64,000 nucleotides of DNA, from NCBI RefSeq assembly GCF_000179575.2, contig NC_015636.1, positions 1,093,495 through 1,157,494 on the forward strand, written 5' to 3'. A program made the translations under genes and the position numbers. Every line of letters starts with the position of its first letter. Position 1 is the stretch's first letter. Under the pieces are notes generated by a model that was given only the letters and a program-made list of their open reading frames with translations, was not told the origin of the DNA and searched no databases. Below are positions 1,198 to 56,840 of the stretch, one piece after another. The DNA is from Methanothermococcus okinawensis IH1. GTDB lineage: Archaea; AGJL01; Methanococci; Methanococcales; Methanococcaceae.

Positions 1198-2556
1198 TTA
1201 CTCATCAATATCATGCTCTACATCCAATGCACGCATAACAGCTGCCATTTTTCTCTCGGTTTCAATATATTCATTTTCTGGAACAGAATCTGCAACAATT
1301 CCAGCCCCTGCCCTTAATCTAATCTTATTATCTATTTCTGCCATTCTTATAGCTATTGCAGTATCTGCATGATTGCTAAGTGAGAAATACCCCACAGCTC
1401 CGCCATATACTTTTCTCCGTGATTTTTCAAGTTTATCTATTATTTCCATTGCCCTATATTTCGGAGCTCCGGTTAATGTTCCAGCAGGAAAAGCTGCCTC
1501 TAAGGCATCAAACATTGTAGCACTGTCTTTTAGTTCCCCTGTTACCTCACTTTCTATGTGCTGAACATGGCTGTATCTAACTATCTCAAAGAATCTGCTC
1601 AACTTAACAGTTCCAGATTTAGATACTTTTCTTACATCGTTTCTTGCTAAATCAACAAGCATCATATGTTCAGCCCGTTCCTTCTCATCATTAAGAAGTT
1701 TTTCTGCAAGTTCTTTTGTTTCTTCCTCGGTTTTTCCAACTTTTGTAGTGCCAGCAATTGGGTTTATTTTTAAAATATTGTTCTCAACTGATGCCATTGT
1801 TTCAGGGGAGGCACCTACAACATCCTTTCCAAATTCAAGTAAAAACATATATGGACTTGGGTTGAGCTCCCTTAAATTTCGATATATTTTAAATGCGGAA
1901 TAATCGCTTTTTAATTGATATTCCCTTGATACTACAACTTGGAAGGCATCTCCACTATAAATATATTCTTTTGTTCTCTTTACCATATCCATGAAATCCT
2001 TTTTATCTGCATCGCATCCGATAATATTTGTTCCACCTTTTTCATCCACTATTTCATATTTCTTTGCCTTTTCAATAATCTTTTCGGCGTTTTTCATTTC
2101 TTCAATGGAATTATTCAACGAAAGGTAATAATATCTATTCAGTATATGGTCATAAACATAAACACTGTTGTAATATCCAAATACAGAAGGCTCTTCTATA
2201 TCTCCGCCGATATAATTGTGAATCGTATCGTAGGCAAAATATCCCAAAAAACCTCCTGTAAATCTCTCATTTGAATCTATATTCATTATTTCTTTTTTAT
2301 TTTTTATTTCAGATGCGAATATATCTTTCAATGCCTTAAATGGATTACTTTCCTTTGAAACTGTGCTATTATCTATTTTTGTATTATTTTTAATATTTAC
2401 AACAAACTCTGGATTTGAAGATATATATGTATATCTCGCTTTTGAAGGATGTTTATCCCTTGATTCTAAAATAAAAGGATATTTTCCTTCCTCCCTCATA
2501 ACACCATATAATTTCAATGGGTCGATATAATCAAACTTTTGCCTAAATAATTTCAT
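1198..2556 (-). CDS. trpE: Anthranilate synthase component I TrpE
   Basis: Chorismate-utilising enzyme that makes anthranilate with TrpG. At 452 aa it has the usual archaeal length. The N-terminal half contains I-L-E-S (residues 29-32), the conserved tryptophan-feedback motif of TrpE, and G-G-F-L-G-Y-F-A-Y-D at 101-110. The chorismate-binding domain includes the I-A-G-T (267-270) and the P-A-G-T-L-T-G-A-P-K motif (357-366). The start is ATG after GGGATAAT. It is third in the operon after trpC and trpD, separated from trpD by a 157-nt pyrimidine-rich spacer in which I see no ORF. Both the feedback motif and the upstream leader peptide suggest control by tryptophan. Confidence 0.95.
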   Translation of the reverse strand: MKLFRQKFDYIDPLKLYGVMREEGKYPFILESRDKHPSKARYTYISSNPEFVVNIKNNTKIDNSTVSKESNPFKALKDIFASEIKNKKEIMNIDSNERFTGGFLGYFAYDTIHNYIGGDIEEPSVFGYYNSVYVYDHILNRYYYLSLNNSIEEMKNAEKIIEKAKKYEIVDEKGGTNIIGCDADKKDFMDMVKRTKEYIYSGDAFQVVVSREYQLKSDYSAFKIYRNLRELNPSPYMFLLEFGKDVVGASPETMASVENNILKINPIAGTTKVGKTEEETKELAEKLLNDEKERAEHMMLVDLARNDVRKVSKSGTVKLSRFFEIVRYSHVQHIESEVTGELKDSATMFDALEAAFPAGTLTGAPKYRAMEIIDKLEKSRRKVYGGAVGYFSLSNHADTAIAIRMAEIDNKIRLRAGAGIVADSVPENEYIETERKMAAVMRALDVEHDIDE

Positions 2557-2713
2557 ATTATCCCATTTTTTACATTTAACTTATTTTTAGTGCCTACTTT
2601 TAATTTTATTTAGTTTAACCTACTTAATTTTATTTTTTTATTTTTTATTTTATTTTAAATTTTTATAATTTTATTATCTAATTTACATCTAATATAATAT
2701 TTATTATCATCTA

Positions 2714-3721
2714 TTATCTGTAATTTTGAATTTCTCTAAGTTTATTAAGCACGATTCCTTCATCGATGGCATTTTCTGCTATTTCGAGACCTTCTTTATA
2801 ATCTGATGCTACATCTGATGCATAAAGAGCTCCAGCAGCGTTTAATAGTATAAAGTTTCTATCTCCATTAGTAATCTCTGAATTTCCTTTTTTTCCTTCG
2901 AAGACGCTTATTATTCTCTTGGCACTTTCATCTGGACTATTGCATGGAATAGGCTTTGAAGGGATTAGTCCAATATCGCTTGGGTGTATTTTATATATTT
3001 TATTTCCATCTTCCTTTTTATTGTCGTTTATTTCTAAAATTGTGGAATAATTATTTGGATTTAACTCATCTAAACCATTTCCATAAACTACAAGTGCTTT
3101 TTTAACACCAAGAAGTTTTAATGCATTCCCAACTTTTTCAACCAAATCATGAGAATTTACACCTATAATCTGGTAATCAGGGTTTGCAGGGTTTGCAAGG
3201 GGACCCAATATATTAAATATCGTTTTTATTCTCAATTCTTTTCTAACAGGCATTATTTTTTTCAATGCAGGATGGTATTTTGGAGCAAATAAAAATACAA
3301 AGTTTGTTTCATCAATCATCCTTTTAGCTTCATCAGGGGTAGAATCGATTTTAATATTCAATGCTTCTAAAACATTTGCAGAACCACTTTTTGAAGTAAT
3401 GGAGACATTACCGTGTTTTGCAACCTTCTTAAAGCATGATAATAAGATAGATACAGCAGTGGAAACATTTATCGTAGAAGAACCGTCCCCTCCTGTTCCA
3501 CAGGTATCACAAACACTTCCCAAATCTACCTTAACGGCGTTATCCCTCATGGCTCTTGCAAAACCAGCAATTTCTTCGGAAGTAAAGCCCTTAGTTTGAA
3601 GTGCTGCAAGATAAGCTCCTATTCTTATTTCACTTTCATTTAAAAGGTTATTGAATAACCTGTATGCTTCTTCATAGGTTAAATCATGTTTATCTACTAT
3701 TTTATTTAATAAATCGCTCAT
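2714..3721 (-). CDS. trpD: Anthranilate phosphoribosyltransferase TrpD
   Basis: Transfers phosphoribose from PRPP to anthranilate, the second committed step of tryptophan synthesis. At 335 aa it is full length. The PRPP-binding G-T-G-G-D-G motif lies at residues 75-80, followed by S-T-I-N-V-S-T and K-H-G-N at about 100-108, all diagnostic. The ATG at 3721 overlaps the trpC stop by 4 nt (ATGA), so translation is probably coupled. It has its own site, GAGGCGAAATT before ATG. Confidence 0.95.
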   Translation of the reverse strand: MSDLLNKIVDKHDLTYEEAYRLFNNLLNESEIRIGAYLAALQTKGFTSEEIAGFARAMRDNAVKVDLGSVCDTCGTGGDGSSTINVSTAVSILLSCFKKVAKHGNVSITSKSGSANVLEALNIKIDSTPDEAKRMIDETNFVFLFAPKYHPALKKIMPVRKELRIKTIFNILGPLANPANPDYQIIGVNSHDLVEKVGNALKLLGVKKALVVYGNGLDELNPNNYSTILEINDNKKEDGNKIYKIHPSDIGLIPSKPIPCNSPDESAKRIISVFEGKKGNSEITNGDRNFILLNAAGALYASDVASDYKEGLEIAENAIDEGIVLNKLREIQNYR

Positions 3722-54422: not shown

Positions 54423-55439
54423 ATGAAAATAAAAAGTTTTTTAAATTATTTGAATGAAAACAACATAAAAAAGGCGGTAATTTTAAAAAAAGAAAATATA
54501 AATTATTTTTTAGAAAGATATCCTCCAACATTTTCGATTTTAGTCTTTGATGTAAAACATGATAGGGCTGTTTTGAAAGTTCCAAAATTGGAATATAGGG
54601 GAGCTCTGACATATAAAAATAAATACCTTGATATTGAGTTATTTGAAAAAATTGAAGAGGTATTTAAGGGATGTGATGGTGTTGAGGATTCTCTTCCGTT
54701 AAAATTCTTAAAATATCTTGATAATTACAAAATAATATCTGATAAAATAAGAGAAATGAGAAGAATAAAAAACAGTAAAGAAATAGGATTAATCCAAAAG
54801 GCAGCTAAAATAAGCGATAAGGCAATTGAACATGCAACAGAACTTATACTAAATACTGATAAACCCATCACTGAATGTGAGCTCGCCGCAGAAATCGAAT
54901 ACATCATGAAAAAGGAAGGCAGTATAAAACCATCATTTGATACCATAGCTGTTTCAGATAAAAAAACGGCATTACCCCACAGTATGCCTTCCAGTAATAC
55001 TATTAAAAATATACTTTTAATGGATATCGGAGCTGTTTATGAAGGTTATCATTCTGATATTACAAGAACTGTCATTTTAAACCAAGATAAAAGGTATAAA
55101 GATATATACAACCTTGTTAATAGTGCAAAAACTGAGGCAGAAGCATATCTTAAAGAGGGAGTTTCAGTAAAGGAGCTCGACTCAATAGCAAGAAAATCTA
55201 TGGGAAAATATGAAAAATATTTTATTCATTCATTGGGACACGGCGTTGGTGTAGAAATCCACGAAGAACCAGCAGTTTCTTCAAAGGTTAAAGAAGATAT
55301 TATTTTAAAAGAAGGTATGGTGATTACAATAGAACCAGGTATTTATCTTGATGATTTTGGAGTAAGAATTGAAGATTTATACCTTGTTAAAAGAAATGGA
55401 TTTAAAAAATTGAGCAATGCAAAAATAATGGAGTATTAA
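54423..55439 (+). CDS. pepQ: M24-family aminopeptidase (Xaa-Pro dipeptidase-like)
   Basis: 338 aa. The creatinase N-terminal domain (1-110) precedes the pita-bread domain. Metal ligands are visible: Asp in M-D-I-G-A-V-Y, Asp in H-S-D-I-T-R-T, His in H-S-L-G-H-G-V-G, Glu in I-E-P-G-I-Y and Glu in R-I-E-D-L-Y. It probably cleaves X-Pro peptides. GTGATAAA-ATG start, 89 nt after aroA. Confidence 0.88.
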   Translation: MKIKSFLNYLNENNIKKAVILKKENINYFLERYPPTFSILVFDVKHDRAVLKVPKLEYRGALTYKNKYLDIELFEKIEEVFKGCDGVEDSLPLKFLKYLDNYKIISDKIREMRRIKNSKEIGLIQKAAKISDKAIEHATELILNTDKPITECELAAEIEYIMKKEGSIKPSFDTIAVSDKKTALPHSMPSSNTIKNILLMDIGAVYEGYHSDITRTVILNQDKRYKDIYNLVNSAKTEAEAYLKEGVSVKELDSIARKSMGKYEKYFIHSLGHGVGVEIHEEPAVSSKVKEDIILKEGMVITIEPGIYLDDFGVRIEDLYLVKRNGFKKLSNAKIMEY

Positions 55440-55579
55440 CTTTTCAATAATAATATAAATTAACTAAATATATAACTATATAGATATAGCATTAGATATA
55501 GTATGGCATAATCATAATATTAATCTATTATAAATTACATAAAGATTATAAAACTAAATTTTTTATTATTTTTTATTTT

Positions 55580-55813
55580 AAAAGTATCTCTCGACGATAA
55601 CACCCTATCTTCATCCTTGGCAAAAGCCATGTCTGAGGGCTAACCCACGCCGAGAGCGATATAGGATTTTTGCTGTATCGTGCTCATCCTAAGGGAGAAT
55701 TCCCTATCACACGACTCGCCCAAAAATCCATTAAAAATTATACCTTCAATTTCGAACCCGCTATCATTGCAAGGTCATCCATGAGCTCCATGTAGGTCGG
55801 TTTATTGAAGGCA
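55580..55813 (-). ncRNA. Candidate structured RNA in a GC-rich island
   Basis: About 230 nt, much more GC-rich than the surrounding intergenic DNA, without a long ORF. Stems (plus coordinates): 55743-55750 with 55804-55811 (8 bp, perfect); 55664-55672 with 55721-55729 (9 bp); 55588-55596 with 55648-55656 (9 bp); hairpins at 55692-55705, 55618-55629 and 55637-55646. The third stem has a G-U pair on the minus strand but an A-C mismatch on the plus strand, favouring minus. A TATA box sits about 26 nt upstream of the minus 5' end and T-rich DNA follows its 3' end. It lacks the RNase P GAGGAAAGUC core and SRP motifs. UGAU/GAUGAG around 55680-55712 and a following ACA recall an archaeal H/ACA unit. 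Confidence 0.7.
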
Positions 55814-55833
55814 TATTATATTATATTAATTTA

Positions 55834-55844
55834 GTATATATATG
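55834..55844 (-). promoter_or_regulatory. TATA box of the candidate RNA
   Basis: On the minus strand CATATATATAC lies at the right distance (about 26 nt) from the first base-paired residues of the GC-rich RNA at 55811-55813. Confidence 0.5.
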
Positions 55845-55910
55845 TTATTATTTATTATATTATTTTTTATAATTTTATAATCTTGTAATTAATTTTACAT
55901 TTGGAAATTT

Positions 55911-56840
55911 CTATTTAACATTTAACATATATTCAATAGCTTTTTTCGCCTTTTCTATTATTTCATCATCCAATGTAATTTCATATTTTTCTTCAACTAA
56001 ACATTTTTCAACTTTTTCAAGAGTTATCTGTTTCATAGGTTCGCATATAGCATCCTTTCTAAGTGGTATTAATTTTTTTGTTTTTCCAAGCTTTTCAAGT
56101 TCAATTTTTAACCTTGTTATCATGTCGCATTCTGTCCCAATAACAAACTCATCATTATCGGAGCTCAGGACATGTTTAACCATACCACTTGTGCTATAAA
56201 TATAATCTGCAATATCCTGAACTTCTGGATTACATTCGGGATGCACCAATACCTCAGCGTTGGGGTATTGTTTTTTAATATTTACTACATCATCAACTGT
56301 AAATTTTTTATGAACATAACAGTGTCCATCCTCGGGTATGCCTATAATTTTTTTATCTGTTCTTTTTTTCACATAATACCCAAGATTTTGGTCTGGTCCA
56401 AATAATATTTCATTTTCTTCAAATGAATTTACAATTTTATCCGCATTTGCCGATGTGCATGTTGCATCTGCAAGAGCTTTTGCTGAAGCAAGAGTATTTA
56501 CATATATAACAACTTTTGCGTTAGGATGTTGCTTTTTAGCATTTTCTATTATCTCAGGTGGGAGTTGATGTGCCATAGGGCATTCTGTATTTATTATTTC
56601 AGGCATCAAAACCTTTTTATCTTTATTAAGTATCTTTGCAGTTTCTGCCATAAAATCTACACCGCAGAACACAATAATATCTGCATCAGTTTCCTTAGCT
56701 TTTATACATAATTCCAATGAATCGCCCATAAAATCGGCTATCCTTTGTATTTCTTCTGGCTGGTAATTATGTGCCAATATAATAGCATTTTTCTCTTTTT
56801 TTAATGTGTTTATTCTCTCCACAATATTTGTAATATCCAT
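55911..56840 (-). CDS. nadA: Quinolinate synthase
   Basis: 309 aa. Condenses iminoaspartate with dihydroxyacetone phosphate for NAD. Triplicated NadA pattern: A-H-N-Y-Q near residue 22, F-C-G-V-D-F-M-A-E-T near 82 with the first cluster Cys, C-T-S-A-N-A near 130-135 and the late G-T-E-C-D-M and C-E-P-M-K cysteines. GGCGATATT-ATG. Monocistronic. Confidence 0.95.
   Translation of the reverse strand: MDITNIVERINTLKKEKNAIILAHNYQPEEIQRIADFMGDSLELCIKAKETDADIIVFCGVDFMAETAKILNKDKKVLMPEIINTECPMAHQLPPEIIENAKKQHPNAKVVIYVNTLASAKALADATCTSANADKIVNSFEENEILFGPDQNLGYYVKKRTDKKIIGIPEDGHCYVHKKFTVDDVVNIKKQYPNAEVLVHPECNPEVQDIADYIYSTSGMVKHVLSSDNDEFVIGTECDMITRLKIELEKLGKTKKLIPLRKDAICEPMKQITLEKVEKCLVEEKYEITLDDEIIEKAKKAIEYMLNVK

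Follow-up and report, generated by a model that had tools for sequence, protein, structure and literature searches.

A predicted three-hairpin box H/ACA guide RNA of Methanococcales with putative targets in functional centres of 23S rRNA

Taken together, the comparative and target-pairing data suggest, with a probability of about 0.93, that a GC-rich island in the genome of Methanothermococcus okinawensis IH1 is the gene of an archaeal box H/ACA guide sRNA with three hairpins (H1, H2 and H3), whose predicted targets are 23S U2576, U2626 and U1997. The observations that carry this reading are: a conserved, covarying fold; the strand of the RNA; a promoter-like box; pairing that is the best available in the organism's own rRNA; a change of the H1 guide together with its target; and the presence of a nop10 gene. 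Transcription, RNP assembly and the formation of three pseudouridines would be the consequences.

The island lies in a stretch of 64,000 nucleotides, here called the window, on a contig of 1,662,525 bases; the genome has 2 contigs and 1,677,455 bases in all. It covers about 230 nt on the minus strand (55814-55585), the first stem starting at 55812 and the last ANA box reaching 55585. In 100-nt intervals its GC content is 0.41-0.49 (55600 to 55799), against 0.10-0.14 in the flanking intervals (55450-55549 and 55800-55949). No listed open reading frame of at least 60 amino acids in the window overlaps 55580-55844. By Pfam, the neighbours are an M24 peptidase on the plus strand (ending at 55439) and NadA on the minus strand (55911-56840). 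The minus strand of 55570-55820 folds at -76.2 kcal/mol (z -3.45), a value as good being found in 0 of 200 shuffles; the plus strand of the same region, at -61.2 kcal/mol (z -2.91), also beats its own shuffles. A sequence-only reading had described a structured GC-rich island of this length with three long stems enclosing inner hairpins and a TATA box 26 nt upstream of the minus-strand 5' end, and each of these elements is present as described. It had also held that the island is no tRNA, RNase P RNA or SRP RNA, which agrees with the Rfam search of the whole window, where every family stays below its gathering score.

Table 1. Putative features of the guide RNA gene, in window coordinates
Feature	Positions	Strand	Basis or remark
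TATA-like box ATATATATAC	55834-55843	-	centre about 26 nt from H1
Hairpin H1: H/ACA motif, 9-bp lower stem, pocket, kink-turn pattern	55742-55812	-	covariation, coordinates
H1 5' guide AAACCGA, pairing with 23S UCGGUUU 3' of target U2576	55797-55803	-	target scans; AGCCGA/UCGGCU in G025, G034
H1 3' guide UUCGAA, its UCGA pairing with 23S UCGA 5' of U2576	55751-55756	-	target scans
H1 ANA box AUA (ACA in many relatives)	55739-55741	-	alignment, coordinates
Hairpin H2: H/ACA motif, lower stem GGAUUUUU/AAAAAUCC, kink-turn pattern	55664-55729	-	covariation, coordinates
H2 5' guide GGGCG, pairing with 23S CGCCC (A-loop)	55717-55721	-	target scans
H2 3' guide CAGC, pairing with 23S GCUG	55672-55675	-	target scans
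H2 ANA box AUA	55660-55662	-	alignment, coordinates
Hairpin H3: H/ACA motif matching the third motif of HgcG/Pab40	55588-55656	-	Rfam match, covariation, coordinates
H3 5' guide GGGUUA, pairing with 23S UAACCC	55641-55646	-	target scans
H3 3' guide GUUAU, pairing with 23S GUAAC	55597-55601	-	target scans
H3 ANA box AUA	55585-55587	-	alignment, coordinates

The architecture of all three hairpins is that of an H/ACA motif (Table 1). In each, a lower stem of 8-9 pairs is followed by a two-stranded pocket and an upper stem, and all three covary. Each upper stem carries a putative kink-turn pattern, GA opposite NNNGA; across the alignments of the hairpins (A1-A3), the UGA on the right never varies, and the GA on the left is invariant or at least 90% conserved. 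The distance from pocket to ANA box, counted by eye, is 15 nt in H1 and 14 nt in both H2 and H3, within the 14-16 nt of H/ACA hairpins. The three boxes, AUA in the window, all read ACA in genomes G014 and G016. The likeness to an H/ACA guide that the earlier reading had seen is thus borne out; its restriction to one part of the RNA was too cautious, the features being found in every hairpin. Of the Cbf5-Nop10-Gar1-L7Ae set, the search covered Nop10, and its gene was found in this genome. The H1 of the window has one additional unpaired U adjoining the target. RNAalifold on 12 homologues gives 53 pairs, in 22 of which one or more sequences have both partners changed; it also pairs the two guide strands of H1 (invariant columns 22-24 with 69-71), partly closing the pocket, which counts against the H/ACA reading.

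Covariation was scored against 500 shuffles of each alignment. For H1, 93.5% of cells are paired in alignment A8 (29 distinct of 34 sequences) and 7 of 17 pairs are changed on both sides, with a covariation score of 0.254 against 0.149 in shuffles, reached by none of them. For H2, alignment A7 (31 distinct of 32 sequences) gives 94.8% paired cells, 13 of 15 pairs changed on both sides and a score of 0.576 against 0.231 (0/500). As A7 and A8 were fitted to the structure, they are biased towards it. Among the MAFFT alignments, A5 of H1 (24 sequences) scores 0.238 against 0.146 (0/500), and A3 of H3 (28 sequences), with 82.6% of cells paired, scores 0.373 against 0.221 (0/500). The number of pairs changed on both sides is a weak measure in these two alignments, the 5 pairs of H1 being equalled in 40 and the 12 of 19 pairs of H3 in 23 of the 500 shuffles. 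Further pair types show no clear excess over shuffles, which reach the observed number in 493 (H1, A5), 255 (H3, A3), 485 (H2, A7) and 490 (H1, A8) of 500 cases. When the pairing partners are slid, every covariation measure drops in all three hairpins.

The alignments differ in their composition. A1-A3 exclude sequences identical to another row (among the solitary H3 hairpins, L038 equals L035), and A3 is without L164, the solitary H3 of G028. The H1 seed A5 is without five of the 29 rows of A1 (L020, L021, L023, L024 and L099), all of which are back in A8. The H2 alignment A2 (31 rows) was misregistered in the lower stem; the H2 model was built from 11 of these rows (A6), and the counts were made on A7, which was fitted to that model.

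The paired columns also indicate the strand. In the H/ACA-paired columns, cells with G-U outnumber those with A-C by 47:2 in H1, 36:8 in H2 and 61:24 in H3, and on the plus strand each G-U would become A-C. In 35 of 36 sequences, all except G031, the centre of a TATA-like 8-mer lies 22-34 nt upstream of the H1 stem; the set of 8-mers was picked after the sequences had been read, and its background of 1.6% refers to random window positions and must run higher in AT-rich intergenic DNA. Since all three hairpins covary, G-U far exceeds A-C and the box is kept in 35 of 36 sequences, the minus strand is taken to be the RNA. The proposal of a structured minus-strand RNA gene is upheld by these data, as is its expectation of compensatory changes in related genomes.

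The pockets were then compared with rRNA. In each hairpin, the two guide strands can pair on both sides of a UN in rRNA, as in known H/ACA guides. The scan covered the uridines of the organism's own rRNA, namely its single copies of 16S (L062) and 23S (L064), and scored pairing on both sides of the pocket, where each side could skip at most one guide base. The highest-scoring sites were: for H1, 23S U2576 (UCGA-UG-UCGGUUU, 4+7 pairs), a score reached by 0 of 500 shuffled pockets; for H2, 23S U2626 (GCUG-UU-CGCCC, 4+5 pairs), reached by 7 of 500; and for H3, 23S U1997 (GUAAC-UA-UAACCC, 5+6 pairs), reached by 9 of 500. When each genome's pocket was compared with its own 23S fragment (the match and up to 1.5 kb per side, without 16S), the same site ranked first in 24 of 24 genomes for H1, 23 of 23 for H2, G012 having no H2, and 13 of 14 for H3, where the miss is G002, whose fragment does not contain that stretch of 23S; the H3 scan covered hairpins other than the solitary ones described below. 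The cross-genome H2 pocket had been trimmed to the favoured register, so the scan of the organism's own rRNA is the sole open test for H2. That register is supported by G025 and G034, in which the pockets of both H1 and H2 adjoin the upper stem directly (by eye).

The pairing of H2 is short, and two other sites, 23S U1021 and U1061, lie within 2-4 kcal/mol. Pairing at U1021 needs an A beside the upper stem, where six rows of A2 (L020, L021, L023, L024, L030 and L097) have C, and U1061, a conceivable alternative, scores more weakly than U2626. For H3, a 16S site was also considered: GGUUAGC and GUGUUA seem antisense to 16S GUAACACGUGGCUAACC, but spacing by hand puts a G at the target position, and the scans favour 23S U1997.

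Counting in the E. coli 23S gene, from anchors that we take to be a length of 2904 and a sarcin-ricin loop at 2654, places U2576 at E. coli 2504 and U2626 at 2554. The annotated gene used (L167 1610-4879, E. coli Nissle, NZ_CP007799) has 3270 bases, 366 above the assumed 2904. Because these surplus bases defeated counting for the third site, U1997 was assigned to E. coli U1915 through its motif and the available text of PMC2584109. U1997 lies in helix 69, U2576 in the peptidyl transferase centre and U2626 in the A-loop. The control used two pockets, the Rfam consensus for HgcG's first hairpin and the third pocket, on the 23S fragment of G040, where they pick sites 571 nt apart; the published targets of Pab40.1 and Pab40.3, L2588 and L2016 (PMC4652768), are 572 apart.

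The H1 guide changes in step with the rRNA in G025 and G034. At the fifth pair of its 5' guide, 24 of 24 genomes keep pairing: 21 have rRNA U opposite guide A, these two have C opposite G, and one (G031) has a G-U wobble. Put as motifs, rRNA UCGGCU in G025 and G034 goes with guide AGCCGA, and rRNA UCGGUU goes with AACCGA in 21 of 22 genomes and with GGCCGA (G-U) in 1 of 22. UCGGCU is also found in the rRNA of G040 and G042, so C may be the older state of the rRNA. At the seventh pair, only 15 of the 24 are paired (A-U in 9, G-C in 6), and 9 are unpaired. The rRNA opposite the H2 guide is identical in 24 genomes of the order; the guide variants of G006, G009 and G011 (GGGUG and UAGU) have U in place of C and would still pair by way of G-U, as judged against the rRNA of other genomes. 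The co-change evidence from G025 comes from one contig. The 23S of G034 (L088, contig C5) has C, not U, at the E. coli 1915 site, although this genome has an H3 hairpin (L033). Only 82% identical to the query, that contig is possibly foreign, which makes G034 less useful for the H1 co-change.

If the RNA acts as its architecture suggests, each hairpin would bind one set of Cbf5, Nop10, Gar1 and L7Ae: L7Ae would sit on the kink-turn, and Cbf5, together with Nop10 and Gar1, on the ANA box, the lower stem and the pocket. The pocket would then pair with both sides of one 23S uridine, and Cbf5 would isomerise the unpaired U to pseudouridine. By this route H1 may direct the modification of U2576, H2 that of U2626 and H3 that of U1997.

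Modifications at these three positions are described in other organisms. E. coli 1915 is reported as m3-pseudouridine (PMC2584109). The pseudouridine at E. coli 2504 is made by RluC (PMC11194073), which addresses the same site as H1 would but is a stand-alone protein without a guide RNA. In yeast, pseudouridine 2923 is made with snR10 (PMC7277114, PMC9045821) and corresponds to E. coli 2554, since yeast 2921 and 2922 are matched to 2552 and 2553 in PMC2584109. snR10 is thus an H/ACA guide for the site predicted for H2, but it is a eukaryotic snoRNA, likened here by function and not by homology. Neither the literature covered (mainly the main texts of open papers) nor the available text of PMC5539422 reports H1, H2 or any archaeal guide for 2504 or 2554. 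Within that scope, the guides H1 and H2 would be the new elements; the three-hairpin H/ACA build and an H3 guide of HgcG/Pab40 type are known. The analysis accordingly predicts two archaeal pseudouridines, at the positions of E. coli 2504 and 2554, together with their guides.

The closest known RNA is HgcG. The Rfam search that the earlier reading had proposed, run permissively on 55440-55910, finds HgcG (RF00064, Pab40, H/ACA) on the minus strand at 55871-55580 over model positions 1-276, with an E value of 1.3e-08 and 36.4 bits, under the gathering score of 77; of four matches in all, the second best has an E value of 0.79. HgcG is also found on the strand of the RNA in 11 of 18 homologous loci (E at most 0.01). 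With stricter filters it matches in 37 of 61 genomes at E at most 1, above the cut-off only in G040 and G042. A match at G000:C2:593685-593833 (15.7 bits) was dropped, as this stretch reads by eye like tRNA and 5S genes. According to reviews, a single hairpin is usual among archaeal H/ACA sRNAs, and two or three are rare (PMC7991803, PMC3608112).

That the island is a plain HgcG/Pab40 orthologue, hairpin for hairpin and with the same three targets, is nevertheless very unlikely. The match covers the full model, Pf7/Pab40 of Pyrococcus/Thermococcus is likewise described with three hairpins (PMC2584109), consecutive and with kink-turns, and its third hairpin has an H3-type pocket which, judged by pairing, would share the target L2016, equivalent to E. 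coli 1915 (PMC4652768). The other two hairpins part company: the same text gives L2588 for Pab40.1 and L1932 for Pab40.2, whereas H1 and H2 pair best at the equivalents of E. coli 2504 and 2554. U2568, the organism's own equivalent of L2588, lies 8 nt upstream of the U2504 equivalent and is absent from the four best sites of H1; in G040, it is this position 8 nt upstream that the HgcG consensus pocket picks. Moreover, neither the H1 nor the H2 model has a match in G040 or G042, the genomes with HgcG above the cut-off. Consistent with this lack of an H1 match, pseudouridine between 2588 and 2612 of Thermococcus kodakarensis 23S is reported only at 2589, 2592 and 2607 in the available text of PMC6138745, from which the U2504 equivalent (about 2600 by our count) would be unmodified. 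In M. jannaschii, a related H/ACA motif is described for L2015 (PMC4652768). It is presumably the solitary H3 of G028; there the H3-type hairpin would stand alone and H1-H2 apart, in contrast to the single gene of the window.

Another possibility would be an H/ACA RNA that mainly chaperones assembly of the large subunit at helix 69, the strand of the peptidyl transferase centre and the A-loop, modification being secondary or absent. The three sites lie in functional centres and are addressed by a single RNA, and loss of snR10, the yeast guide for the U2554 equivalent, is reported also to lower pre-rRNA processing (PMC7277114). This role is nonetheless quite improbable: the spacing around the target uridines and to the ANA boxes suits a modification pocket, and H1-H3 without H2 occurs, as does solitary H3, so linkage of all three hairpins is not required. 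A 3' UTR element of nadA, whose frame lies about 97 nt upstream on the same strand, is a still remoter explanation. In the window and in six further loci, a NadA frame precedes the RNA in the same orientation, at a distance of about 1 kb in one of the six (L006); but NadA is found in only 7 of 32 loci, all 7 of one genus (flanks of mostly 1.5 kb, one locus being just 501 bases long), and elsewhere the RNA persists with a TATA-like box of its own. The probability of chance structure in a GC-rich patch is close to nil, given that 34 of the order's 36 genomes have a match to the H1 model, that as many have one to the H2 model, and that the hairpins show compensatory changes. Under the guide reading, a more far-reaching proposal is conceivable and rather doubtful: the one RNA could serve as a joint checkpoint of the large subunit that modifies and holds helix 69, the peptidyl transferase strand and the A-loop, in turn or together, as an RNA-guided counterpart of RluC at U2504 and with an H1-H3 copy travelling between genera beside a metal-ATPase gene.

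Every one of 41 genomes yielded some match in a DNA search at E 10, many of these matches being short and due to chance; near-full-length matches occur in 18 genomes, the organism's own among them, and further genomes have partial ones. For H1 and H2, 160 genomes were searched with the models; 36 of these (G000-G035) share the genus, family or order of the window by kinship. Of the 36, all but G008 and G025 have an H1 match (34) and all but G008 and G012 an H2 match (34); in G025, H1 adjoins H2 and is seen by eye though missed by the model, and in G008 the model searches find neither. Outside the order, matches are weak and occur in 1 of 124 genomes for H1 (G116) and 4 of 124 for H2 (G057, G081, G090 and G127); those in G116, G057 and G081 were read and are without the conserved guide core.

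Within the order, which we take to be Methanococcales, the kinship data separate two families, presumably Methanococcaceae and Methanocaldococcaceae. In the former, all genomes except G012 and G008 have H1-H2-H3 as a single locus. In the latter, H1-H2 loci are without H3 (12 of 12 examined), and a solitary H3 lies elsewhere in 11 of 14 genomes. In G028, H3 is solitary and H1-H2 forms a separate locus. An H1-H3 arrangement is the second locus of G010 and the only one of G012. As judged from these arrangements, the putative H/ACA hairpins are modular, standing as H1-H2-H3, as H1-H2 with a solitary H3, or as H1-H3; the family thus presents H/ACA hairpins as modules that are joined, split and duplicated.

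G012 (L019/L049) is a one-contig genome without an H2 match, which makes it a natural test case for the pseudouridine predicted at the equivalent of E. coli 2554. Methanococcus is genetically tractable and, together with the G012 variant, makes the predictions testable. Outside the window, the same organism has a decayed-looking H1 copy without H3 at G000:C2:874051-874109 (L095). With its flank, this copy matches the H1-H3 locus of G010 at 89-91%, and the organism therefore seems to have lost a second guide gene. The H1-H3 gene and the metal P-type ATPase region that follows it are 98.4-99.5% identical between L048 (G010, 1442-2915) and L049 (G012, 1440-3218), which belong to two genera. Upstream of about 1440 the two loci do not match, and G012 has an extra ArsR-like frame (gene names by eye). 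Judged from this sequence identity, the shared segment looks like a recent transfer that carried the guide RNA.
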